Source: an uncultured Eubacteriales bacterium (lineage in GTDB: Bacteria; Bacillota; Clostridia; Oscillospirales; Acutalibacteraceae). Taken from it: a DNA stretch of 10,704 bases. The notes beneath the pieces were generated by a model. The model had not been told where the DNA came from, did not search any database, and was given only the letters and a program-made list of their open reading frames with translations. The position numbers and the translations under genes are program-made. This document shows, one piece after another, positions 373 to 10,075 of this stretch (positions are counted from its first letter, which is position 1; the number at the start of each line of letters is the position of its first letter). The stretch covers positions 1-10,704 of the forward strand of contig ONXZ01000027.1 in the NCBI GenBank assembly GCA_900321905.1, read 5' to 3'.

Positions 373-1626
373 ATGATTAAGTTCAAGACGTTTTCAAAAA
401 AGCAGCTTACCACGCTTAACTGGTGGTGCAAAGGCAGTCAGTACAATGACAAAAACGGTATTATCTGCGACGGCGCGGTGCGCTCAGGCAAAACACTTTG
501 TATGTCCATTTCCTTTATAAGTTGGGCGTTGTACCGTTTCAGCGGCACCTCGTTTGCGATGTGCGGCAAAACCATTGCATCGCTGCGGCGCAACGTTATT
601 ACACCCCTGCTGCCTGTCCTTAAAGCGCTCGGCTTTGCAGTGGAGGAAAAAATCAGCCGCAACTACCTTGAAATCAGAAAGGGCAACGTGAAAAACCGTT
701 TCTATCTGTTCGGCGGGCGCGACGAAAGCTCGGCTGCACTGATACAGGGTATGACCCTGGGCGGCGTTCTTTTTGACGAAGTGGCGCTTATGCCGCGCTC
801 TTTTGTTGAGCAGGCGCTTGCAAGATGCTCACTCGAAGGTACAAAATACTGGTTCAACTGCAACCCTGAACACCCCTATCACTGGTTTTATAATGAGTGG
901 ATAAAAAAATCAGTGCAAAAAAATATGCTCTTACTTCACTTTACTATGGATGACAACCCTTCCCTTTCGCAAGATGTTAAAAACCGATACAAAAATCTCT
1001 ATTCAGGTGCGTTTTACGAGCGTTTTATCGAGGGCAAATGGGTAGCGGCTGACGGTCTTGTTTACCCTATGTTTGACGCAAAACGGCATATCAGAGAAGC
1101 GGACAGTTTTGACGAATACTACCTGTCGTGCGACTACGGAACGGTTAACCCGTTTTCGCTCGGACTGTGGGGACGCAGCGGCGGTGTATGGTACAGAATT
1201 AACGAGTACTACCATTCCTCACGCGACAAAGGCGTTCAGTTGACTGACGAGGAATACTACGCCGAACTTGAAGCGCTTGCAGGCGAAAGACAGATTACCG
1301 CGCTGATTATCGACCCGTCCGCAGCGTCCTTCATTGAAGTTGTACGGCGGCACGGCAAGTTCAGGATAATCAAAGCCGACAACGATGTGCTGAGCGGCAT
1401 TAACCGGGTTTGCACAGCGCTCAAGGAGGGCGAAATATTCTTTTCCCCGCAATGCACGGACACACTGCGCGAATTCTCAGTTTACCGCTGGGATAACGAC
1501 ATAAAACGCGACGCACCAAAAAAGGAAAACGACCACGCAATGGACGATATTCGCTACTTTGTGCATACAGTTTTGGGCAAGAGCAGCGATGACTGTTCCT
1601 TCTCCATTGCGGTTGAAAGGAAGTGA
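373..1626 (+). CDS. terL: Terminase large subunit (packaging ATPase/nuclease)
   Basis: At 417 residues this is the motor that pumps DNA into the prohead through the portal and cuts it. Residues 34-41 (GAVRSGKT) are the Walker A loop, and D135-E136 in GGVLFDEVALMP are Walker B with the catalytic glutamate. FNCNPEHPYHWFYNEW is the usual coupling segment after the ATPase. The C-terminal RNase H-like nuclease shows its acidic residues in LSCDYGTVNPF, ALIIDPSAASF and NDHAMDDIRYF. Length matches the PBSX XtmB / Terminase_3-type family, with no key residue missing. A weak ribosome site AGAGGGG (352-358) lies rather far (14 bases) from the ATG, so translation is probably coupled to terS. An intact motor means the element should still be able to package DNA. 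Confidence 0.96.
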   Translation: MIKFKTFSKKQLTTLNWWCKGSQYNDKNGIICDGAVRSGKTLCMSISFISWALYRFSGTSFAMCGKTIASLRRNVITPLLPVLKALGFAVEEKISRNYLEIRKGNVKNRFYLFGGRDESSAALIQGMTLGGVLFDEVALMPRSFVEQALARCSLEGTKYWFNCNPEHPYHWFYNEWIKKSVQKNMLLLHFTMDDNPSLSQDVKNRYKNLYSGAFYERFIEGKWVAADGLVYPMFDAKRHIREADSFDEYYLSCDYGTVNPFSLGLWGRSGGVWYRINEYYHSSRDKGVQLTDEEYYAELEALAGERQITALIIDPSAASFIEVVRRHGKFRIIKADNDVLSGINRVCTALKEGEIFFSPQCTDTLREFSVYRWDNDIKRDAPKKENDHAMDDIRYFVHTVLGKSSDDCSFSIAVERK

Positions 1627-1630
1627 AGCC

Positions 1631-2794
1631 TTGGGAATTTTTAAGAAGGACAAACCATCACAGCAAACCAAACCCGAAAGCGGTGCAACTGCGATAATGA
1701 CAAGCAGCATAAGCGCTCACCCGTTCAGTTCACTCAGGGGTTACACGCCTATGGCAGGCAGTAACGGCAGAGTTTACAAATCACTGCGCGAGGCTGTGCC
1801 GATTATTGACGCGGCAATACTCAAAATTGTCAGACTTATGGGCGGTTTCAGTTTTAAAACGGGTGATGACGTGTTTGACGCGCAGATGAACGACTACTTT
1901 GGCAAAATTAACGTAGGCGGCAATCAGACAGGTATTCAGGCATTTATAGATAACTACGTTGAGCAACTTTTGACCTACGGCACGGCTATAGGCGAAATGC
2001 TCTATGACGGACACGGTTTTTACGCGCTTTATAACGGCGAGCTTGAAGTGCTTGACGTCAAAAGAAAGAGCGGCAGTATTGAACCTGAATTTTTTAACAC
2101 GTCATCAGGCAGACCTGTTGCAGTGAAACATCCTGAAAAACTGCTGTTTTCCGTGCTGAACCCAGAGCCGGGCAGTCTTGTTGGCACAAGCCTGCTGAAA
2201 GGCTTGCCGTTTGTCAGCAACATTCTGCTGAAAATTTACAACACAATAGGCACCAACTGGGAAAGAGTCGGCAATCTGCGCTACGCTGTGACATACAAGC
2301 CGCAGAACGACGGCACCGACAAGGCGTTTGCAAAAGAACGCGCTAACCAGATGGCTTCTGCGTGGAAAGACGCTATGGGCTCAAAAGAGAGCGTTAAGGA
2401 TTTTGTCGCTGTGGGTGATGTAAAAATCAGCGTTATCGGCTCTGATAATCAGATACTCGACAGCGAAGTGCCTGCAAGGCAGATGCTTGAGCAGATTATT
2501 GCAAAGACAGGACTTATGCCATATATGTTCGGTCTGAGTTGGTCAACCACCGAGCGTATGAGTCAGCAGCAAGCGGATATTCTCACCACGGAACTTGAGG
2601 CTTACCGCCGCATTGTTACACCGATTATTGAAAAAATCGGCAGAGTTTATCTTGCGCTTTGCGGCAATGTAAGCGAACTTGAAATTGAGTGGAACGACAT
2701 CACTCTGCAGGACGAAACTCAACTTGCTCAGGCACGGTTGTACAACGCTGAGGCGGACAAAATTTTAACGGAGGTGAACGGCACTGAACAGTAA
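1631..2794 (+). CDS. Phage portal protein
   Basis: This 387-residue portal forms the dodecameric ring at the capsid vertex through which terminase packages DNA and to which the neck attaches. The start is read as TTG at 1631, giving a typical portal N-terminus (GIFKKDKPSQQ). AAAGGAAG at 1616-1623 sits 7 bases upstream and the terL stop is just before. Upstream ATG options would add a stretch overlapping terL with no portal-like character. Family features include the early RVYKSLREAVPIIDAAILK, the segment LLFSVLNPEPGSLVGTSLLK, and the C-terminal SWSTTERMSQQQADILTTEL with following helices. The gene overlaps the protease gene by 11 bases. The identification is firm at family level. Confidence 0.92.
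   Translation: MGIFKKDKPSQQTKPESGATAIMTSSISAHPFSSLRGYTPMAGSNGRVYKSLREAVPIIDAAILKIVRLMGGFSFKTGDDVFDAQMNDYFGKINVGGNQTGIQAFIDNYVEQLLTYGTAIGEMLYDGHGFYALYNGELEVLDVKRKSGSIEPEFFNTSSGRPVAVKHPEKLLFSVLNPEPGSLVGTSLLKGLPFVSNILLKIYNTIGTNWERVGNLRYAVTYKPQNDGTDKAFAKERANQMASAWKDAMGSKESVKDFVAVGDVKISVIGSDNQILDSEVPARQMLEQIIAKTGLMPYMFGLSWSTTERMSQQQADILTTELEAYRRIVTPIIEKIGRVYLALCGNVSELEIEWNDITLQDETQLAQARLYNAEADKILTEVNGTEQ
2770..2786 (+). promoter_or_regulatory. Ribosome site and CTG start codon of the protease gene
   Basis: GGAGG at 2770-2774 lies 9 bases before a CTG at 2784 in the protease frame. An in-frame TGA at 2775 closes the frame just upstream, and the next ATG in frame is at 2952, inside the conserved protease domain. 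No ATG, GTG or TTG exists in frame between the stop and the conserved N-terminal motif, so CTG is the best available start. Confidence 0.65.
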
Positions 2795-3713
2795 CAACAC
2801 ACCAAAAACCGATATTGAAAAAATCAACCTGTTCACACGCAAAACTCTGACAGAGGACGAGGTTTACACCTTTACCGTAAAACTCTGCAACAACGATGTT
2901 GACAGGGATTTTGAAAAGTTTTCACGTGAGGCGTTATATGCCCTTGCGCCGATGTTTGTGGGCAAAACGGGTATCTTTGACCACTCCATGAAGAGCGCCG
3001 ACCAAAAGGCGCGAATCTACGAAACATTTGTTGAAAAAGAAAGCGGCAAAACCACGCTTGACGGTGAGGATTTGTATGTTCTCAAAGCAAAGGTTTATAT
3101 GCTGAAAAACGACGGCAACAAATCGCTGATTGACGATATTGAAGCAGGAATTAAAAAGGAAGTTTCCGTGTCCTGCTCGATGAACGAGAGCATTTGCTCC
3201 ATCTGCGGCAAAGACAAACGTCGCGGCGGCTGCACGCATATCGGCGGAAAACTTTACGGCAAAAAACTTGCATTTACTGTGCTTGGCGCCCCGTCTGACG
3301 CTTACGAATTCAGTTTTGTGGCTGTGCCTGCACAGCGTGAAGCAGGAGTTACAAAAACATTTAAATCAAAGGGGTATGATATGGACAAAGTACTTAACAC
3401 AATAAAATCCTGCGCCGGCGAAGTGACTTTGACAAAGGAGCAGGCAGACGAGGTTAACGATTATATCGAAAATCTCAAAAGCGGTGCAGAACTTGGCGAG
3501 GTCTATAAAAAAGAACTTATGAGCGAAGTCACGGCAAAACTTATGCTCGCTCTGCCAAATGTTGACGGCGAACTGCTTAAATCCGTTACGGCTGTTATGA
3601 CAGTTAAAGAACTTATGGGATTTAAGAGCGGTCTTGGCTCGGCTATGACTCCCCAGCTTGCACCAAAGAAAGAAAACAAAAAGAATACGGACTACTCTCA
3701 ATTCAGAATTTAG
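2784..3713 (+). CDS. Prohead maturation protease fused to scaffold domain
   Basis: Read from CTG 2784 this is 309 residues. It should cleave scaffold and capsid proteins inside the prohead during maturation. The N-terminal part has LCNNDVDRDFEKFSREAL and then GKTGIFDHS, with His67 the likely catalytic histidine. KKEVSVSCS (about 124-132) carries the likely catalytic serine (Ser128 or Ser130), and DAYEFSFVAVPAQREAGV closes the protease domain near residue 190, as in phage serine proteases of the U35/S78 type. A Cys-x2-Cys-x8-Cys-x-His cluster (C138, C141, C150, H152) sits inside the domain. The remaining ~110 residues are helical and charged, as expected of scaffold, and end just before the decoration gene. 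The usual ATG (2952) would delete the VDRD motif, so it was rejected as the start. Confidence 0.85.
   Translation: MNSNNTPKTDIEKINLFTRKTLTEDEVYTFTVKLCNNDVDRDFEKFSREALYALAPMFVGKTGIFDHSMKSADQKARIYETFVEKESGKTTLDGEDLYVLKAKVYMLKNDGNKSLIDDIEAGIKKEVSVSCSMNESICSICGKDKRRGGCTHIGGKLYGKKLAFTVLGAPSDAYEFSFVAVPAQREAGVTKTFKSKGYDMDKVLNTIKSCAGEVTLTKEQADEVNDYIENLKSGAELGEVYKKELMSEVTAKLMLALPNVDGELLKSVTAVMTVKELMGFKSGLGSAMTPQLAPKKENKKNTDYSQFRI
3381..3713 (+). CDS. Probable nested scaffold protein (internal start, same frame)
   Basis: An in-frame ATG at 3381 is preceded by AAAGGGG (3368-3374) with 6 bases between, and starts exactly where the protease domain ends. It would give a separate 110-residue helical, charged protein (MDKVLNTIKS...), made in addition to the protease-scaffold fusion. 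The arrangement matches lambda C/Nu3, where an internal start makes free scaffold in excess over protease. The ribosome site and placement are seen; that both products are made is inferred. Confidence 0.5.
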   Translation: MDKVLNTIKSCAGEVTLTKEQADEVNDYIENLKSGAELGEVYKKELMSEVTAKLMLALPNVDGELLKSVTAVMTVKELMGFKSGLGSAMTPQLAPKKENKKNTDYSQFRI

Positions 3714-3722
3714 GAGGTAAAA

Positions 3723-4070
3723 ATGAGTATTTCATACAAAGGTTATAATAACAACACTATTACATTTGAAACAGACGGCAACATTACAGTCGGTGCCCCC
3801 GTATCAATAGACAACACAAACTGCGCAATTAACGCAAGTGTAGGCAGCGATTTTATCGGCGTATGTACCGCAATAAGAGGCACCTGGGCAAGTGTTCAGA
3901 CTGACGGCTATGTTGAAATTCCTTACGAAGGAATGGATCCGTCTACAGGCATTATTAAACTTGTCAGCGCAGGCGGAGGCAAAGTTAAAAACGGCGGTGC
4001 TGACGATATTGCTGTATACAAAGTAATCAAGGTCGATACCGAGAACAAAATCGTAGGAATTATCCTTTAA
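3723..4070 (+). CDS. Capsid decoration (cement) protein
   Basis: This 115-residue, beta-rich, glycine-rich protein is encoded between scaffold and major capsid genes, the usual place for a head-stabilising protein that binds the outside of the expanded capsid. VGAPVSIDNTNCAINASVG, DFIGVCTAIRGTWASVQTDG and YVEIPY follow the pattern of gpD/DUF2190-like cement proteins. AGGAGGT at 3712-3718 overlaps the upstream TAG stop and lies 4 bases before the ATG, predicting strong expression. The exact family cannot be settled by eye. Confidence 0.8.
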   Translation: MSISYKGYNNNTITFETDGNITVGAPVSIDNTNCAINASVGSDFIGVCTAIRGTWASVQTDGYVEIPYEGMDPSTGIIKLVSAGGGKVKNGGADDIAVYKVIKVDTENKIVGIIL

Positions 4071-4100: not shown

Positions 4101-5090
4101 ATGGCATATGATAATCTGAAAATTGAAAAGGAACTCTACACATCCGGCAAAAGTTTTACAAAGGCGCTTGAAAGCCTTGACCCGTCTGAAAACTATGTGG
4201 GCACTCCCCTTGAGGGACTTGACGCGTATCAGCGCCAACTCAAGCGTTTTGATATCAAGGTTTCGGGCAATGATTCCGACACGGTATCTAAATTCTTCCA
4301 GACTTCCGACTCGTCCGCGCTGTTCCCTGAATACGTTGCAAGAGCCGTAAGACAGGGACTTAACGAATCTGATGTTGTAAGCCAGATTATTGCGGCTACA
4401 ACCAACATCGACTCGCTTGACTACAGAGCAGTTGAAAGCATTGTGGACGAAAACGCGTTGGAAAACGAACACATTATGGAGGGCGCGTTTATCCCCGAAA
4501 CAACGGTTAAACTCAAGGACACCCTCACACCGCTCAACAAGCGCGGCCGAATGCTCGTGGCTTCATACGAAGCGGTTAAGTTCCAGAAACTTGACGTGTT
4601 CACCGTAATCCTCAAGCAGATTGGCGAATACATTGCAAGATGTCAGACATTTGACGCAATCCAGACGCTGTACAGCCTCAATCAGGACGATATTCACCAA
4701 TTTGAAAACGGCATTAATTATTCCGAACTCATTGATTTCTGGAGTCTTTTTGACCCATACAATCTCACAACTATTGTAACGGACGCCGCTACAATGACGG
4801 AGATGCTTAAACTCGACGAGTTCAGAGATGCTGCGGCAGGTCTTAACTTCCACGGCACGGGCTCAATGATTACACCTTTCGGTGCAAACATTGTAAAGGC
4901 AAGTTGCCTTGCAAACCAGAACGTTTTAGTCGGTCTTGACAAAAACTATGCGCTTGAAAAGGTGCAAGCAGGCGACGTTGTAACTGACTTTGACAAACTC
5001 ATTGACCGTCAGCTTGAACGCGCAACTGTAAGTTGCATTGCAGGATTTTCACCTATTTTCAAGGGCGCTTCACAGATTGCTTCGTACTAA
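4101..5090 (+). CDS. Major capsid protein, HK97 fold
   Basis: The 329-residue protein sits after protease, scaffold and decoration genes and before the connectors, as the shell subunit should. Features of HK97-fold capsid proteins from Clostridia phages are visible: FFQTSDSSALFPEYVARAVR at about 75-95; the E-loop and beta region with FIPETTVKLKDTLTPLNKRG; the long P-domain spine helix around residues 154-190; the A-domain with MITPFGANIVKASCLANQNV; and a C-terminal RATVSCIAGFSPIFK. No large N-terminal delta domain is present, which agrees with a separate scaffold domain. The ribosome site AGGAGGT is ideal (7 bases spacing), fitting the most abundant product of the operon. Confidence 0.93.
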   Translation: MAYDNLKIEKELYTSGKSFTKALESLDPSENYVGTPLEGLDAYQRQLKRFDIKVSGNDSDTVSKFFQTSDSSALFPEYVARAVRQGLNESDVVSQIIAATTNIDSLDYRAVESIVDENALENEHIMEGAFIPETTVKLKDTLTPLNKRGRMLVASYEAVKFQKLDVFTVILKQIGEYIARCQTFDAIQTLYSLNQDDIHQFENGINYSELIDFWSLFDPYNLTTIVTDAATMTEMLKLDEFRDAAAGLNFHGTGSMITPFGANIVKASCLANQNVLVGLDKNYALEKVQAGDVVTDFDKLIDRQLERATVSCIAGFSPIFKGASQIASY

Positions 5091-5105: not shown

Positions 5106-5462
5106 ATGATTGATATTGAGAGCGTAACCGAAACTCTGTGCACCATATCCGGCATAAGTGCAGAGGAACTTGAAAACTATTCCGTTTTGATTCAAAATTC
5201 AGCAAGCGTCGTTGAAACCTCGCTCATTGATAAAAGCCTTGAAAACGACAGCAGAATAATCTATCTTGCCGCAACGCGCGCATACTACAATATTATGCTC
5301 ACAGGCACAAATGCTGACGACGTAAGCGATTTTGCTGCGGGGGATATAAAAATCAGCCTGCGTTCACAGCCTGCTGAAAGCGCGCTGAAACTTTATCAGG
5401 AAGCGGCGGAAGCAGTGAGCGGACTTTTGCGCGATAACGGTTTTGTTTTTAGAGGTGTGTGA
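5106..5462 (+). CDS. Head-tail connector (gp6-like adaptor)
   Basis: A 118-residue mostly helical protein directly after the capsid gene, the usual place of the adaptor ring that docks under the portal (gp6 of HK97, gp15 of SPP1, YqbG-type). RIIYLAATRAYYNIMLTGT is a central helix typical of the fold, and SALKLYQEAAEAVSGLLRDN another. GAGGT at 5094-5098 is 7 bases before the ATG. The assignment rests on position, size and helical pattern. Confidence 0.7.
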   Translation: MIDIESVTETLCTISGISAEELENYSVLIQNSASVVETSLIDKSLENDSRIIYLAATRAYYNIMLTGTNADDVSDFAAGDIKISLRSQPAESALKLYQEAAEAVSGLLRDNGFVFRGV

Positions 5463-5463
5463 T

Positions 5464-5826
5464 ATGCGTAGTTTTAGTCATACAATCAAAAAGTACCTTG
5501 AAATGGTTGGCCGCAAGGCAACTGTGGTTAAAGAAAACGGCGGCGAAGACGAGTTCTTCGCCGTTATGGAGCAAACCTGGAAAAGGAACAAAACCAATTT
5601 TGAGGACCGCGCTATGAAACCCGGCAGGGTTTACAACGAATACTGCGAAATTTTGTGTCCGTTTGACATCAATCTGAAGCAGTACGGCAAAAACGACATT
5701 TTTATTATTGAAGGCGAAAAGTATGAACTTTGCCGCGCAGAGCAGGTTAAGGCTTACGGCAAGATACAGTTTTATCGCGGAATTATAAAAAAGATAAGGG
5801 AGGCTGATAACAGTGTATTTGGCTGA
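5464..5826 (+). CDS. Head closure / neck protein (XkdH-like)
   Basis: This 120-residue protein has an N-terminal helix (FSHTIKKYLEMVGRKATVV) and then mainly beta strands, ending KIQFYRGIIKKIREA. That composition and position fit the head-closure ring protein that seals the packaged head. The ATG at 5464 is chosen because AGAGGTG (5451-5457) lies 6 bases before it and the preceding stop ends at 5462. The frame is open further upstream without a start supported by a ribosome site. Function is inferred from gene order. Confidence 0.6.
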   Translation: MRSFSHTIKKYLEMVGRKATVVKENGGEDEFFAVMEQTWKRNKTNFEDRAMKPGRVYNEYCEILCPFDINLKQYGKNDIFIIEGEKYELCRAEQVKAYGKIQFYRGIIKKIREADNSVFG

Positions 5827-6244
5827 TGAGGTTGAAAAATATATTGCAATGATGAAATCCAAAGACTACTACAGCGACAAATATGTTATTGCCGCCTACC
5901 CTTATGTATACAGTCCGACAAGACTTGACAGACCGCTTATTACTGTATCGCCGTGCGGCATTGACGCTAATCGCGCAGGTATTGGCGCTGATGAATTTTT
6001 TGCAAAATACAAGATAAGAATTGACGTATTTGTGCCGCAAAACGGCACATCGCCGTGCGTGAGCGATATAATCGGCACTATACTTGACGACGCGGCAGAA
6101 TTTTATCCGCTTGCGTATTCCGTCAGCGAAATTACGGCTGACGACAGCATATCCTGTTTTACGGCATGTGTTAAACTGACGCACAGCGGACTAATTCAGC
6201 AGGAGGATAATAATGAATCAGGAAGAACAGAAAACAGAGATTAA
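5813..6244 (+). CDS. Neck or tail-terminator-like protein
   Basis: A 143-residue alpha/beta protein beginning at GTG 5813, with AAGGGAGG (5796-5803) 9 bases upstream and 14 bases of overlap with the previous gene. The pattern of a strand (KYKIRIDVFVP), a helix (SDIIGTILDDAAEF) and a late strand (FTACVKLTHSGLI) is that of tail terminator / tail completion proteins (gpU, gp17 and XkdJ-like), which cap a tail tube and join it to the head. Its last ~11 codons overlap the following small gene and look like low-complexity linker. A tail terminator with no tail tube gene nearby is odd. Confidence 0.6.
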   Translation: MYLADEVEKYIAMMKSKDYYSDKYVIAAYPYVYSPTRLDRPLITVSPCGIDANRAGIGADEFFAKYKIRIDVFVPQNGTSPCVSDIIGTILDDAAEFYPLAYSVSEITADDSISCFTACVKLTHSGLIQQEDNNESGRTENRD

Positions 6245-6326
6245 CAACAACACCTTGCAGGAAATCAGCGATTACCTGCAACTTGATTCACGAAGATACG
6301 ATAACACAATAAAGGAGGACGAGTGA
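6213..6326 (+). CDS. Unrecognised 37-residue acidic protein
   Basis: A 37-codon gene (MNQEEQKTEI...IKEDE) starts at ATG 6213 with AGGAGG at 6201-6206, 6 bases away. It overlaps the preceding gene by 32 bases and shares one base with the next ATG (TGATG at 6324-6328). The product is very acidic and mostly helical by composition (LQEISDYLQL), with no transmembrane segment or known motif. It occupies the place where sheath, tube, chaperone and tape-measure genes stand in PBSX-like phages. It could be a small structural plug, a chaperone or a remnant; no function can be assigned. The strong ribosome site and coupling argue that it is translated. Confidence 0.7.
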   Translation: MNQEEQKTEINNNTLQEISDYLQLDSRRYDNTIKEDE

Positions 6327-6841
6327 TGAACACTGCAAAAATGGGTTACAAGGGAATGACCTTTGACGTCAACCCTGCCACAATCAGAACGGATTTCAGC
6401 AAAAAAGTTGCGGTTAAAACAATTCCGTTTGGCTTTGGTAAAAGTACGGAAATATGCAGAATGCCTGTTAAGATTACGGGCAGCGGTATGTTTTGCGGCA
6501 AAAACGCAGGGCAAAACGCGCACCGTCTGATGCAAGTATTTGAAAAAGGCGGCTCATCATATCTGTTTTTGCCAAAACTTGCGCCGATTAAAGCGTTTTT
6601 TACTGACCTTACAATGCGCGTGGGTGCAGACAGCGAGAGCATTGAATACACCTTTTCTTTCACCGAGGACTGCGTTGAAAAGCAAAGTCGCTACCCGTTT
6701 GGCTACACATATGCAAAACAAGGCGAAAATCTGTACGACATTGCTAACAGGTGCAACATCACTGCTGACGCACTGTTTAGTGCCAACGATTTTATGGATA
6801 TGTTCTCCGTGCAGGAAGGTGACAAAGTATGGCTGAGATAG
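6326..6841 (+). CDS. Baseplate protein with C-terminal LysM domain (XkdP/gp53-like)
   Basis: This 171-residue protein has an N-terminal baseplate domain: GYKGMTFDVNPATIRTDFSK, then PVKITGSGMFCGKNA, and FTDLTMRVGADSESIEYTFS. A LysM domain follows at about 126-171 (YTYAKQGENLYDIANRCNIT, ending VQEGDKVWL). Proteins of this architecture sit between tape measure and hub genes in contractile phages; the LysM part may bind hub or cell wall. ATG 6326 is preferred to an in-frame GTG at 6323 because AAAGGAGG (6311-6318) lies 7 bases before it. It overlaps the hub gene by 13 bases. Confidence 0.85.
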   Translation: MNTAKMGYKGMTFDVNPATIRTDFSKKVAVKTIPFGFGKSTEICRMPVKITGSGMFCGKNAGQNAHRLMQVFEKGGSSYLFLPKLAPIKAFFTDLTMRVGADSESIEYTFSFTEDCVEKQSRYPFGYTYAKQGENLYDIANRCNITADALFSANDFMDMFSVQEGDKVWLR

Positions 6842-7782
6842 TTGCAAAACTGCGTTATATTTCGGGTGAGTTCTTTGAGGTTGAAAACCTTGTCTATATG
6901 GAACTCACCGGCGACCTTGATGCAGCGTGCGACGGACTGCGGCTGAGGTTTTACAGCAAAAATGAGTTGCCTGAAGTGAAGGAAGTCACCCTTTATATTA
7001 ACGGTGAAAAAGCGTTTTTCGGTTATTGCGACAAGCAGGAATTCACAAAAAACAAACACGGCGGCAGCATATTTATTTATGCTCGTTCAAGCGCTGCGCT
7101 GCTTGTGGATAACGAGGCAAATCCAGCCACCTACAACTCACCGAGCACTAACGTGCTGTTTCACGCGGAGGCAAAGGCGTTTGGCTTTAAAAACAAACTG
7201 CCCGACCTTGTGTCTGAGCACGAATACTCAGTTGAAAAAGGCACCTCCTGCTACGGTGCTGTTAATCAGTTTGTTAAAACGCTGACTCAGACGTCGATAC
7301 GGGTGAACTGTGAAAACGAACTTGTTTTGCCCGACGACAGCAAAACCACGGACCTTGACCTTACCGATATAACGGAGTTTAAAAAGTGCGTAAACCGCGC
7401 CGCACCTGTCACGAGGATTGATTACAAAATCAGCGCAGAAACGCCGTATAACCGCCACTATAAGAGCAGGTTTTGCGAAGGTGCAAAAATTATGCGAACA
7501 AGAAAACTCAACATATCCTCACTGCCCGCCTGGCAACGTGAATACACGCTTGCAGACATTATGCAAAACGCGGCGAAAGACTACTATACAGTCACCACCG
7601 TTATTGACGGCTGTCATATTTTTGCTCTGAATTCAAGGGCAAAACTGAGCGGCGTTCTTTCGCCAGATGACAATTACAGACTCTACCGCACCGTTACGAC
7701 ATATGATGAAAGCGGCGAAAAAACGAAACTCGTTTTCCTTAAACACAACGATTTGAAGGAGGTCAGTTATGTGGCTGAGTAA
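6829..7782 (+). CDS. Baseplate hub protein (gpD / XkdQ-like)
   Basis: The 317-residue product matches the XkdQ/YqbQ-type hub, the trimer in the middle of the baseplate to which tail tube and spike attach. Its length is normal for that family. Features include an N-terminal beta domain with YMELTGDLDAACDGLRLRFY, a second strand-rich part (KEVTLYINGEKAFFGYCDKQ), a middle domain with SIFIYARSSAALLVDNEANP, and a C-terminal part with TLADIMQNAAKDYYTVTTVI. AGGAAGG at 6813-6819 is 9 bases before the ATG. No cell-wall hydrolase domain is fused to it. Confidence 0.85.
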   Translation: MAEIVAKLRYISGEFFEVENLVYMELTGDLDAACDGLRLRFYSKNELPEVKEVTLYINGEKAFFGYCDKQEFTKNKHGGSIFIYARSSAALLVDNEANPATYNSPSTNVLFHAEAKAFGFKNKLPDLVSEHEYSVEKGTSCYGAVNQFVKTLTQTSIRVNCENELVLPDDSKTTDLDLTDITEFKKCVNRAAPVTRIDYKISAETPYNRHYKSRFCEGAKIMRTRKLNISSLPAWQREYTLADIMQNAAKDYYTVTTVIDGCHIFALNSRAKLSGVLSPDDNYRLYRTVTTYDESGEKTKLVFLKHNDLKEVSYVAE

Positions 7783-8128
7783 AACAATTGGCAAAAGTAT
7801 TGCGGATAACAGAGCCCAGAAAGGCAGCATTACTATTTCCGGCTCTGCCGATTTGGAGGCGCAGTATACTGCCGGAGCAAAGAATATGGAATCATACACG
7901 CCTTACGGCTACACCTCTGCCGCGCCGATTGGCGAGGAGGTAGTTGTTATCCCCTCGTCGGACGGCGAAATTGCGCTTGGAACACGCTGCAAAACGAGTG
8001 AACTGCAGAGCGGCGAAGTTATGATTTCCTCACTCGGCGGAGCAAAGATTATACTGAAAAACGACGGCACCGTTGTTATTAATTCGACGGTTATCGGTCG
8101 GGAAGGAGTGATTGGAAATGGCGTATAA
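7769..8128 (+). CDS. Short baseplate spike protein (gpV / Mu gp45-like)
   Basis: A 119-residue protein whose middle (GEEVVVIPSSDGEIALGT) and end (SLGGAKIILKNDGTVVIN) follow the gpV/gp45 spike pattern: an OB-like part followed by a short beta-helix needle. It lies between hub and gp25-like genes, where the spike belongs. It is shorter than P2 gpV and contains no histidine at all, so the apical His-x-His iron site of P2-type spikes is absent. The ATG at 7769 has AAGGAGG upstream (in TTTGAAGGAGGTCAGTT), and the gene overlaps the hub gene by 14 bases. Confidence 0.72.
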   Translation: MWLSKTIGKSIADNRAQKGSITISGSADLEAQYTAGAKNMESYTPYGYTSAAPIGEEVVVIPSSDGEIALGTRCKTSELQSGEVMISSLGGAKIILKNDGTVVINSTVIGREGVIGNGV

Positions 8129-8456
8129 ACTGATTGACGGCGACTACGTTGTGCCGCAGGGTGAAAAGACGCCGACAGAGTGCGACTACATTGATGAACT
8201 TGTGCAAAACGCGCAGGTTGTGCTTACTGCAAAACGCAGAAAATTTTACCCCAACAAAAACTTTGGTTCGCATATATACTCAACTCACGGCGAGCCGATA
8301 GAGGCTTATCTTGAACTTGCGGCACGGCAGGCAGTTGATACGGTTGACGGCGTGTACATAAAAAGCGTATCTTACAGCGATAACAAAGCAACCATTGTAC
8401 TGACAGCAAACGACACTGAAAGGACGGTGATAATCAGCAATGAAAGCAACATATGA
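8118..8456 (+). CDS. Baseplate wedge protein, gp25/W-like (XkdS-like)
   Basis: This 112-residue protein belongs by pattern to the gp25/gpW/XkdS group, which joins the baseplate wedge to the first ring of the contractile sheath. RRKFYPNKNFGSHIY at residues 40-54, followed by a helix (AYLELAARQAVDTV) and strands, is typical. ATG 8118 is chosen over TTG 8112 because AAGGAG (8103-8108) is 9 bases from the ATG and only 3 from the TTG. Its presence implies descent from a contractile-tailed phage, although no sheath gene is seen here. Confidence 0.82.
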   Translation: MAYKLIDGDYVVPQGEKTPTECDYIDELVQNAQVVLTAKRRKFYPNKNFGSHIYSTHGEPIEAYLELAARQAVDTVDGVYIKSVSYSDNKATIVLTANDTERTVIISNESNI

Positions 8457-9504
8457 TGAGATACTTAAAAGAATGCAAAACACATTTTTTGAAAACTGCG
8501 GGCAGACGGCTGACGTATACAGCGATATCGGTGCGAGGTTTCAGGCAGTTGCGAGCGAACTGTTTAATCTTGCGTGCTACAGCGAATTCGTGCTGAAGCA
8601 GACTTTCGTGCAAAGCGCAAGCGGCGATTATCTTGACAAGCACGCTGAACTGCGAAATATGCAGCGAAAAACTGCCGCAAAAGCATACGGCAGCCTGACG
8701 TTTTATATTTCGGAGCCGCTCGAAAGCGACGTTCCTGTTCCTGAGGGCATAATCTGCTCGGTTGAAGGCAGCGAGTACCTGCAGTTTGTCACAACTCAAA
8801 GCGCTGTTATCCCTGCAGGCGATTTAAGTGTTACCGTACCTGCACAGGCACTTGAAACCGGCAGCGCCTACAACGCAAAAGCAGGTACAGTTACAACGAT
8901 TGTTACGCCTCCGGGCTTTGTCAACCGTGTGGAAAACGCACTTGATTTTGAAGGCGGCTGGGACGACGAAAGCGACGAAGCACTGCGAAAACGCATAATG
9001 TCCTCATACAGCGTACCGCCCACAGGACTTTCGCGAAAAAGCATTGCCGAAGTTGTTATGAAAATTGACGACGTGCTTGACTGCAACGTAATAAAACGCG
9101 CCGCAAACGACCTTGATGTATATGTAAAAACAAAGGACGGCACTATCAGCAACGAACTCAGAGCGCAAATTAATGACGCGCTGCTCGTTGCGTATGTGAC
9201 AATTGTTACCCCGACTATCACGCTTGCCACACGCCGTGAATACAACCTGACCATCACTGTATCCCCAACGGACGGTGACAGCACGGAGGTTATTGACAGC
9301 ATTAAAAAAGCAGTGAAAAGCTACACGGACGGTATCCGAATTGGCGAAAGCGTTAATCTGTCCGAAATCTACTATCTTGTGTCTTACAGCGCCCCGGTTA
9401 AAGACTGCGTTGTAAAATCAGACCAGGCGATTAACGGGACTATTATCTGCCGCGAGGATTCATACTGGGTGCCGAGCGAAATTGTGGTGGAATGTTATGA
9501 ATAG
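8440..9504 (+). CDS. Baseplate J-like protein
   Basis: At 354 residues this is the main wedge protein (P2 gpJ, XkdT). Family landmarks are in order: SASGDYLDKHAELRNMQRKT at about 60; ALETGSAYNAKAGTVTTI near 137; and FEGGWDDESDEALRKRI near 170, the characteristic GG-D-E-SDE-R motif. The long C-terminal alpha/beta domain includes REYNLTITVSPTDGDSTEVI. It overlaps the gp25-like gene by 17 bases. GAAAGGA (8418-8424) is farther than usual from the ATG, so translation is likely coupled. Complete and of normal length. Confidence 0.93.
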   Translation: MKATYDEILKRMQNTFFENCGQTADVYSDIGARFQAVASELFNLACYSEFVLKQTFVQSASGDYLDKHAELRNMQRKTAAKAYGSLTFYISEPLESDVPVPEGIICSVEGSEYLQFVTTQSAVIPAGDLSVTVPAQALETGSAYNAKAGTVTTIVTPPGFVNRVENALDFEGGWDDESDEALRKRIMSSYSVPPTGLSRKSIAEVVMKIDDVLDCNVIKRAANDLDVYVKTKDGTISNELRAQINDALLVAYVTIVTPTITLATRREYNLTITVSPTDGDSTEVIDSIKKAVKSYTDGIRIGESVNLSEIYYLVSYSAPVKDCVVKSDQAINGTIICREDSYWVPSEIVVECYE

Positions 9505-10075
9505 TATTTACCAAAGGCTTGAAACGCTGTTAAAAAACACGGGTATTGCATTTAACCAAAATGGAATTTCAAAAGCAGAGGTGCTTGCGTATTCTGCAGG
9601 AATTGCATTTGTTTGGGACATAATTAAAAAGGCGCTTGACGATGTGTTTATGGAAAACGAATCAACGGCAAAAAAATATGCTGTACTGCTTAACATTGAC
9701 CCGAACCGCTACACTATCGCCGACCTTAAAGACGAAATCAAAAGGCGCCTTGCAATGGATTTTGCACACGGCACTGTGACTGAGCACGACGCGGCGTTTG
9801 ACGCGGTAGGCTCAGGAAGTTATGATTTGTTCCTCGACCCTGAGGACGAGTTCCCGACAATCGTTTTTTCAGATGTTGATATTGAGGATTTGCCGCAACT
9901 TGCAAAGTTTATTGAGGCGTACACCTGCATATCGGAAAGAACGTTCTACGACGGAAACGGTATGACTTTTGACGACTGGGACGCATGGAACCAGACGTTT
10001 TATACACTTGACAAAATGGCTTTGCCGTTTAACATTTTAGATTATTTAAGGAGTGATATGATTGAGCAGCACTAA
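9497..10075 (+). CDS. Baseplate/tail protein gpI (XkdU)-like
   Basis: A 192-residue protein downstream of baseplate J, in the place of P2 gpI / XkdU, which links wedge and fibre. YAVLLNIDPNRYTIADLKDE and the following IKRRLAMDF recall the XkdU-type N-terminal helical region. The C-terminal half is acidic (FLDPEDEFPTIVFSDVDIED), and DWDAWNQTFYTLDKMALPFN is near the end. ATG 9497 is preferred to the in-frame TTG at 9482: GGTGG (9486-9490) lies 6 bases from the ATG, which overlaps the J gene by 8 bases. The family is assigned from order and general pattern. Confidence 0.75.
   Translation: MNSIYQRLETLLKNTGIAFNQNGISKAEVLAYSAGIAFVWDIIKKALDDVFMENESTAKKYAVLLNIDPNRYTIADLKDEIKRRLAMDFAHGTVTEHDAAFDAVGSGSYDLFLDPEDEFPTIVFSDVDIEDLPQLAKFIEAYTCISERTFYDGNGMTFDDWDAWNQTFYTLDKMALPFNILDYLRSDMIEQH

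Follow-up and report, generated by a model that had tools for sequence, protein, structure and literature searches.

The window, the whole stretch of 10,704 bases analysed here, is an entire contig (C154) of a draft genome of 274 contigs and 84% completeness belonging to a gut or rumen bacterium. Very probably it represents a complete, vertically inherited GTA-like operon with a PBSX-type terminase, which specifies an almost tail-less particle and arose through stepwise loss of the tail. Its 17 genes lie on a single strand, with a small-terminase-like (TerS-like) gene first and a fibre gene last (Table 1). The element is best called GTA-like, since inheritance, gene content and selection all fit this description; the shape of the particle, its DNA packaging and its transfer we infer from the genes.

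Table 1. Genes of the window in order of position. Several of the names are given by position or from weak matches, as stated in the last column.
Feature	Position	Strand	Basis
Small-terminase-like, 107 aa	47..370	+	Terminase_2 E 0.0015, below curated cut-off; in 17/17 genus loci
Large terminase (TerL), PBSX family	373..1626	+	TIGR01547 above cut-off; phrog_2 4e-50
Portal	1559..2794	+	phrog_30703 3e-125
Scaffold/protease-position gene	2784..3713	+	phrog_16951 (function unknown); ATG start of ORF list at 2952
Cement/decoration protein	3723..4070	+	phrog_4588 1e-16
Major capsid protein, MCP (Phage_capsid_4)	4101..5090	+	PF25209 1.7e-9; phrog_3922 2e-74; weak HK97-type TIGR01554
Head-tail adaptor (con1)	5106..5462	+	Position, weak phrog_541 E 0.05; 17/17 genus loci
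Head completion/stopper (con2)	5443..5826	+	Position, phrog_939 E 1.4e-4
Tail terminator, first gap border	5813..6244	+	Profile homologue of modelled relative's N-terminal domain
37-aa gene	6213..6326	+	Motif LDSRRYD; alignment
Tube-initiator/baseplate-type, C-terminal LysM; second gap border	6323..6841	+	LysM, DNA_circ_N just over cut-off; weak phrog_16855, phrog_184; alignment
Baseplate hub	6829..7782	+	phrog_177 2.7e-5
Spike, Mu gp45-like	7769..8128	+	PF06890 2.3e-4, below cut-off; phrog_25991 (unknown function)
Baseplate wedge gene, gp25 position	8112..8456	+	Position, weak phrog_43 E 0.07
Baseplate_J wedge protein	8440..9504	+	PF04865 4e-40
gpI-position gene	9482..10075	+	Position only; in 17/17 genus loci
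Fibre/receptor-binding protein, 158 aa	10062..10538	+	Alignment; phrog_33092 4.5e-5 (unknown function)

A contractile tail module of the PBSX, P2 or Mu type has a sheath gene after the neck genes and a tube gene, whereas the window has neither. Upstream of the gap the operon runs from the TerS-like gene through TerL, portal, scaffold/protease-position gene, cement and MCP to the two connectors; the 37-aa ORF is the sole gene between the tail terminator and the LysM gene, which is followed directly by the hub and then by the Mu gp45-like spike, the gp25-position gene, Baseplate_J, the gpI-position gene and the fibre. A preliminary description of this DNA had reported that a neck gene and a LysM gene are parted by one 37-codon gene alone, with clean overlaps and ribosome sites on both sides. 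The coordinates, the gap, the starts, the overlaps and the sites are all as described. The stopper overlaps the terminator by 14 nt, the terminator overlaps the 37-aa ORF by 32 nt and the latter overlaps the LysM gene by 4 nt; the 37-aa ORF is preceded by an AGGAGG ribosome site and the LysM gene by AAAGGAGG. The gene named as a neck gene does border the gap, but judged by its fold it is a tail terminator: its profile homologue, the N-terminal domain of a relative that was modelled, has structural matches to lambda gpU, to the collar of the R2 pyocin and to the RcGTA chain 6tba_4A. A sequence search of solved structures with the terminator alignment returned nothing beyond two unrelated chains with weak scores (E 0.59 and 1.2), and the same search with the LysM alignment returned essentially LysM-domain chains. 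The N-terminus of the LysM protein is of the DNA_circ_N/hub type according to the family scan. A tube hidden within the terminator or the LysM gene was considered and rejected: comparison of both with the tube profile by hhalign gave no match, and the fold of the terminator is gpU-like.

TerL scores 202.5 bits against TIGR01547, the PBSX family equivalog (cut-off 105.05), and its Walker A lysine, its Walker B acidic pair and the aspartates of the three C-terminal motifs are invariant among 19 aligned sequences. The weak match of the TerS-like protein to Terminase_2 covers profile positions 56-128 of 141 only, and its N-terminal part may be missing. The true start of the portal probably lies downstream of 1559. 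In-frame TAG codons within the portal matches raised the question of recoding; they were put down to the final stretch of the TerL frame, which overlaps the portal, because the ORF of the locus L041 starts past the flagged stretch. At the other end of the operon, the fibre gene shows 20 invariant positions across the 18 sequences of the genus alignment, and it closes the operon in relatives as well. In family scans, extended by a further one for ten of the genes, none of the window's 17 genes had an integrase, replication or regulator match, and the window contains no lysis genes.

To determine how far this architecture is conserved, 17 loci of the same genus with enough flanking sequence were compared. 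Gene order and gap were identical in all 17, and all genes apart from cement, which was not detected in four loci (L049-L052), were open frames. Since all 17 loci have the gap, it is due neither to chance nor to a collapsed assembly; a single-strain deletion is ruled out in the same way, and the earlier view that the gap is not a ragged deletion holds. The portal was found in 53 of 60 genomes of the genus, at one locus per genome, and in G059 it consists of two adjacent pieces in separate frames. It was unmatched in seven genomes (G001, G002, G007, G039, G044, G050 and G052), some of which hold unrelated phage tail or holin genes. Within the order, 43 of 295 genomes were positive with the MCP profile, each with a single match; among the 26 genomes listed for the window's own family, 20 were positive.

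The chromosomal neighbours are shared too. Downstream of the operon lies a DUF1015 gene (two members confirmed by Pfam) in 15 of the 17 loci, at a distance of 26-103 nt in 11 and of 0.9-1.5 kb in four. The remaining two, L047 and L048, have an M28 peptidase instead, which is found further downstream in five other loci. On the upstream side, the four closest loci have a homologue of RecG. Scans of five flanking proteins from relatives (two DUF1015, two M28 peptidases and RecG) identified every one as bacterial. One locus per genome together with shared neighbours means that the element is vertically inherited at an orthologous chromosomal site. The genes of the operon are under purifying selection: relative to the nearest relative, omega was 0.06-0.22 in 15 of the 17 genes, 0.42 in cement, the fastest evolving gene of the operon, and undefined in one. 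Even where MCPs of the genus were down to 50% identical to that of the window, the architecture was conserved. In one member of the genus (L047:5706-6506) Baseplate_J measures only 266 aa and the gpI-position gene 139 aa; the wedge may also be shrinking there.

The preliminary description had offered two readings of the gap, a short-tailed or tailless particle or tail proteins supplied in trans. To search for tail genes elsewhere in the genome, sheath and tube profiles were built from the element's relatives. Neither profile matched in any of 70 genomes of the genus. In control genomes, most of which were themselves profile sources (nine of the ten for sheath and 14 of the 15 for tube gave rows; G268 did not), the sheath profile was positive in 10/10 sheath-bearing genomes and in 0/10 others, and the tube profile in 15/15 expected genomes and 0/5 others. 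The tube profile also reaches diverged copies, since an earlier 16-row version detected the tube in 11 further loci. With general models, matches do occur in the genus, none of them in the genome of the window: Phage_sheath_1 matched 2/70 genomes (G011 and G052, the sheath of an unrelated phage; only G011 also carries the portal), and the tape-measure model PhageMin_Tail matched 9/70. Baseplate_J of the window is the single match in its own genome (G000), and in six genomes of the window's genus tested it occurred once per genome, inside the operon in 6/6. The holin PF05105 was found in 8/41 genomes of the genus and was absent from G000; as it gave no pattern, no second operon or lysis partner was identified. 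Taken together, these searches speak against a supply of tail proteins in trans, and the anatomy of the operon and its relatives favour a particle with a short tail or none.

Relatives that carry a sheath, a tube, a chaperone-position gene and a ruler candidate of 119-229 aa at the exact position of the gap (type F) do exist. Such loci would speak for a deletion if they were close, but they belong to other families, and the clade of the genus is gapped throughout. Type B relatives have kept the tube only, and type A, to which the window belongs, has neither sheath nor tube; a chaperone-position gene is likewise missing from the clade of the window. Type C comprises 27 loci (for example L069, L071-L073, L075-L078, L082, L084 and L086) in which a fibre-homologous domain is joined to the terminator in one ORF of 270-328 aa and no baseplate genes were detected; possibly, this fusion protein is a whole tail in one protein. 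The list of structural matches for its model is taken up by the terminator domain. In type D loci the operon ends after the terminator, and the hub is the last gene in the three type E loci, all of family code f26, to which a Ruminococcus-like genome also belongs. Baseplate_J was not found in any of the type C and D genomes tested, 21 in number (17 C and 4 D, whose completeness is not given), nor in the further type D genome G332, and it was detected in 6/6 baseplate-bearing control genomes.

The tree calculated with FastTree from TerL, portal and MCP (113 rows, midpoint root) showed that the architecture types follow clades. In the clade of the window, which has a support of 100, 28 rows are of type A and a single one is truncated by its contig end. 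Loss of the tube recurs within a tube-bearing clade (L116, L184 and L185), and type C falls into two groups of the tree, so that the terminator-fibre fusion may have arisen twice. With sheath-bearing loci to either side of the midpoint root, loss of the tail appears the simpler direction compared with a tail that was never gained, but this root is not independently fixed. The tube of the relatives has a tube fold, and its model matches chains of the RcGTA virion 6tba. A number of loci show further rearrangements. The stopper is fused to the tube in L110:3981-4721 and L117:5834-6538 and the terminator to the tube in L004:9109-10227; in L116 and L184 both terminator and tube went undetected. L172 (G347, family code of a Flavonifractor-like genome) has a tube, with no sheath or hub detected, and is placed by the tree close to loci with a sheath; it may represent an independent loss of the sheath. 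MCPs of the family also occur in Ruminococcus (the top named matches are Ruminococcus sp.; that of R. flavefaciens is 74% identical to L181) and in Flavonifractor.

Immediately before the LysM gene, one would normally find the tape measure. Each of the 17 loci of the genus has a counterpart of the 37-aa gene, called at 29-56 aa, where the greater lengths result from upstream starts, and in the alignment the genus conserves its motif LDSRRYD. In tube-only loci this position is mostly occupied by 40-60 aa. In the ten readable loci of sheath-bearing relatives, the protein right before the LysM gene is 119-229 aa long, and eight of these ten proteins carry a very similar C-terminal motif (e.g. RDARRYDG). 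A small-gene profile run against 161 ORFs matched L171 (8.6e-9), L056 (1.4e-4) and L173 (1.1e-3) and, more weakly, L137 (2.4e-3), L175 (5.8e-3) and L176 (0.014); in the same search it failed on L170 (6.6) and L174 (0.18) and gave no hit in L177-L179. The 37-aa gene is thus probably a vestige of the tape measure, of which the end that stays on the hub would have been retained. As a tentative scheme, to which we give somewhat less than even chances, the lineage could be dismantling its tail step by step: sheath and chaperone would have been lost, the ruler reduced to the 37-aa plug and the tube given up, and sister clades would have gone on to lose the baseplate as well, so that the terminator-fibre fusion makes up their whole tail. 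Were this true, DNA could be delivered without an envelope-spanning tail; kin recipients could, for example, import released DNA by their competence machinery.

The gene content suggests how such a particle might work. The PBSX-type terminase would fill a small capsid with host DNA, perhaps without sequence recognition, as the short TerS-like protein weakly hints. That the packaged host DNA would be random, and too short for the entire cluster, we infer by analogy, from the PBSX-type TerL and from the GTA-like packaging described for related families (PMC12946183). Adaptor, stopper and terminator would close the filled capsid, and the terminator ring would dock straight onto the LysM ring and the hub, in which the 37-aa protein may sit as the leftover plug of the vanished tape measure. 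LysM ring, hub, spike and wedges would form a sheath-less, podovirus-like stub, in which nothing would contract because the sheath is absent. Baseplate and fibre could anchor the particle to kin cells by their peptidoglycan; the conservation of the fibre would suit kin binding rather than the diversifying host range of a phage. Import of the DNA would be left to the recipient, and lysis and uptake functions would be encoded outside the operon.

Other functions were weighed against this GTA-like reading. Puncture by tailocins is driven by the sheath. The window has a PBSX-family TerL, and a PBSX-like particle might package DNA and yet act on kin as a bacteriocin. We regard such a killing particle as rather unlikely, given that the sheath is absent here and that type C relatives are entirely without a baseplate. 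PBSX itself does not inject its DNA, and the point is left open for FpGTA in the published account (PMC12946183), which speaks in favour of the idea. It is unlikely, too, that the element's own tail proteins sit in a second operon too diverged to be detected. FpGTA does have a second operon, about 125 kb away from the first, but as described it encodes baseplate, fibre, RBP and lysis genes and no sheath or tube (PMC12946183). The window already has baseplate and fibre, and Baseplate_J is single and within the operon in the six genomes of its genus that were tested; moreover, the tube and sheath profiles stayed at 0/70 even though the 16-row tube profile had reached 11 further loci. One genome lends the second operon some support, as G368, an f26 genome, has Baseplate_J at C7:3229-4230 and the MCP on another contig, C19. 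A second operon like FpGTA II is possible there; in five other f26 genomes tested (G089, G191, G243, G296 and G353) Baseplate_J was absent.

Capsid-forming PICIs carry capsid and terminase genes without a tail tube; they are mobile, encode an integrase and use the tails of helper phages. The window resembles such a satellite in that capsid, terminase and connectors are encoded and a tail tube is missing, and a few genomes of the genus do hold other phage tail genes (sheath in 2/70, tape measure in 9/70) from which a tube and sheath might be borrowed. Unlike a capsid-forming PICI, however, the element has retained its own baseplate and fibre and occupies an orthologous site in single copy, with no integrase or regulator match among its 17 genes. 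Furthermore, the tape-measure model, as the one tail model counted here, was unmatched in 61/70 genomes of the genus, and the terminator-fibre fusion of type C offers no obvious place for a borrowed tail. This reading is therefore decidedly improbable. A functionless, decaying prophage remnant would account for the missing lysis, integrase and replication genes and for the portal of G059 in two adjacent frames, but hardly for omega values that stay below 0.5 in all genes for which they could be estimated, open frames in 17/17 loci of the genus apart from cement, invariant acidic residues in TerL and an architecture kept while MCPs fall to 50% identity; we consider it very improbable. The GTA-like operon with a reduced tail remains the reading we prefer.

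Among known systems, PBSX of Bacillus subtilis shares with the window the TerL family, a baseplate gene order of that type and a single domesticated locus. PBSX has a sheath, a tube, chaperones and a tape measure. Compared by description, the window differs from it in that none of sheath, tube and chaperones was found and only the 37-aa gene stands in the ruler position. RcGTA of Rhodobacter capsulatus is a vertically inherited particle operon with a siphovirus-type tail in a host of another phylum, and the terminator and tube models of the relatives match chains of its virion (6tba); no relation at sequence level emerged in the searches made here. The closest published case is FpGTA of Faecalibacterium (Borodovich et al. 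2026, PMC12946183), to which the window is likened by description, particles having been seen there and genes alone here. Its account describes particles of about 40 nm with no identifiable tails that contain 8.4-8.9 kb of host DNA, and judges them most likely podovirus-like, leaving open a possible loss of the tail; random packaging is also reported for Ruminococcus callidus (4.6 kb) and Onthomonas, and PBSX is called GTA-like and is said to kill and not to inject its DNA (PMC12946183).

In FpGTA, operon I contains terminase, portal, scaffold and MCP, and operon II, present in some strains, contains baseplate, fibre and lysis genes (PMC12946183). Like the window, FpGTA is described as an operon of about 10 kb with TerL, portal, scaffold and MCP and with no replication genes, in a gut host of related families; it was found in 12/12 Faecalibacterium genomes examined by its authors (PMC12946183). 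Its small terminase is reported to have no obvious DNA-binding domain (PMC12946183); the short TerS-like protein of the window, with its weak Terminase_2 match, may be of this kind. By accession numbers the portal and MCP of FpGTA lie two genes apart, as in the cement-less relatives found here. The two differ in that baseplate and fibre belong to operon II in FpGTA (PMC12946183), whereas in the window they are within the same operon, in which no lysis genes were found. No protein named as Faecalibacterium was among the best 120 of thousands of matches listed, and no other description of such an element was found by searches of published open-licence PMC articles.

A 2026 report of particles with no identifiable tail and with random gut-bacterial DNA considered that tails are perhaps lost in purification or very short (PMC12946183). 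The element family offers a genetic reason, as tail genes are not in the operon across many genera of related families, and capsid and terminase stay under strong selection while tail genes are absent. The element may thus help to explain tail-less DNA-carrying particles of the human gut. The relatives constitute a natural deletion series, from a full contractile tail through tube only and no tube to the terminator-fibre fusion, which can be compared step by step; this series of tail loss is unusual and well resolved. It opens to test the minimum tail of a particle derived from a tailed phage, the shrinking of a tape measure to a plug and the movement of genes by inherited particles among common gut and rumen bacteria.

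Several database records filed as viral contain the operon. Four human faecal records named "Bacteriophage sp." (L055-L057 and L059; MT835508.1, MT835769.1, MT835952.1 and MT836604.1) do so, and L055 has long flanks without operon genes; these phage entries may be pieces of bacterial chromosome, perhaps from DNA that had been packaged. The record L003 from a viral collection (IMGVR_UViG_2585428093_000001), presumably from an isolate genome by the form of its name, also spans the operon. It is apparently the same element as L047 (G005) and thus, it appears, a domesticated operon classed as a virus.
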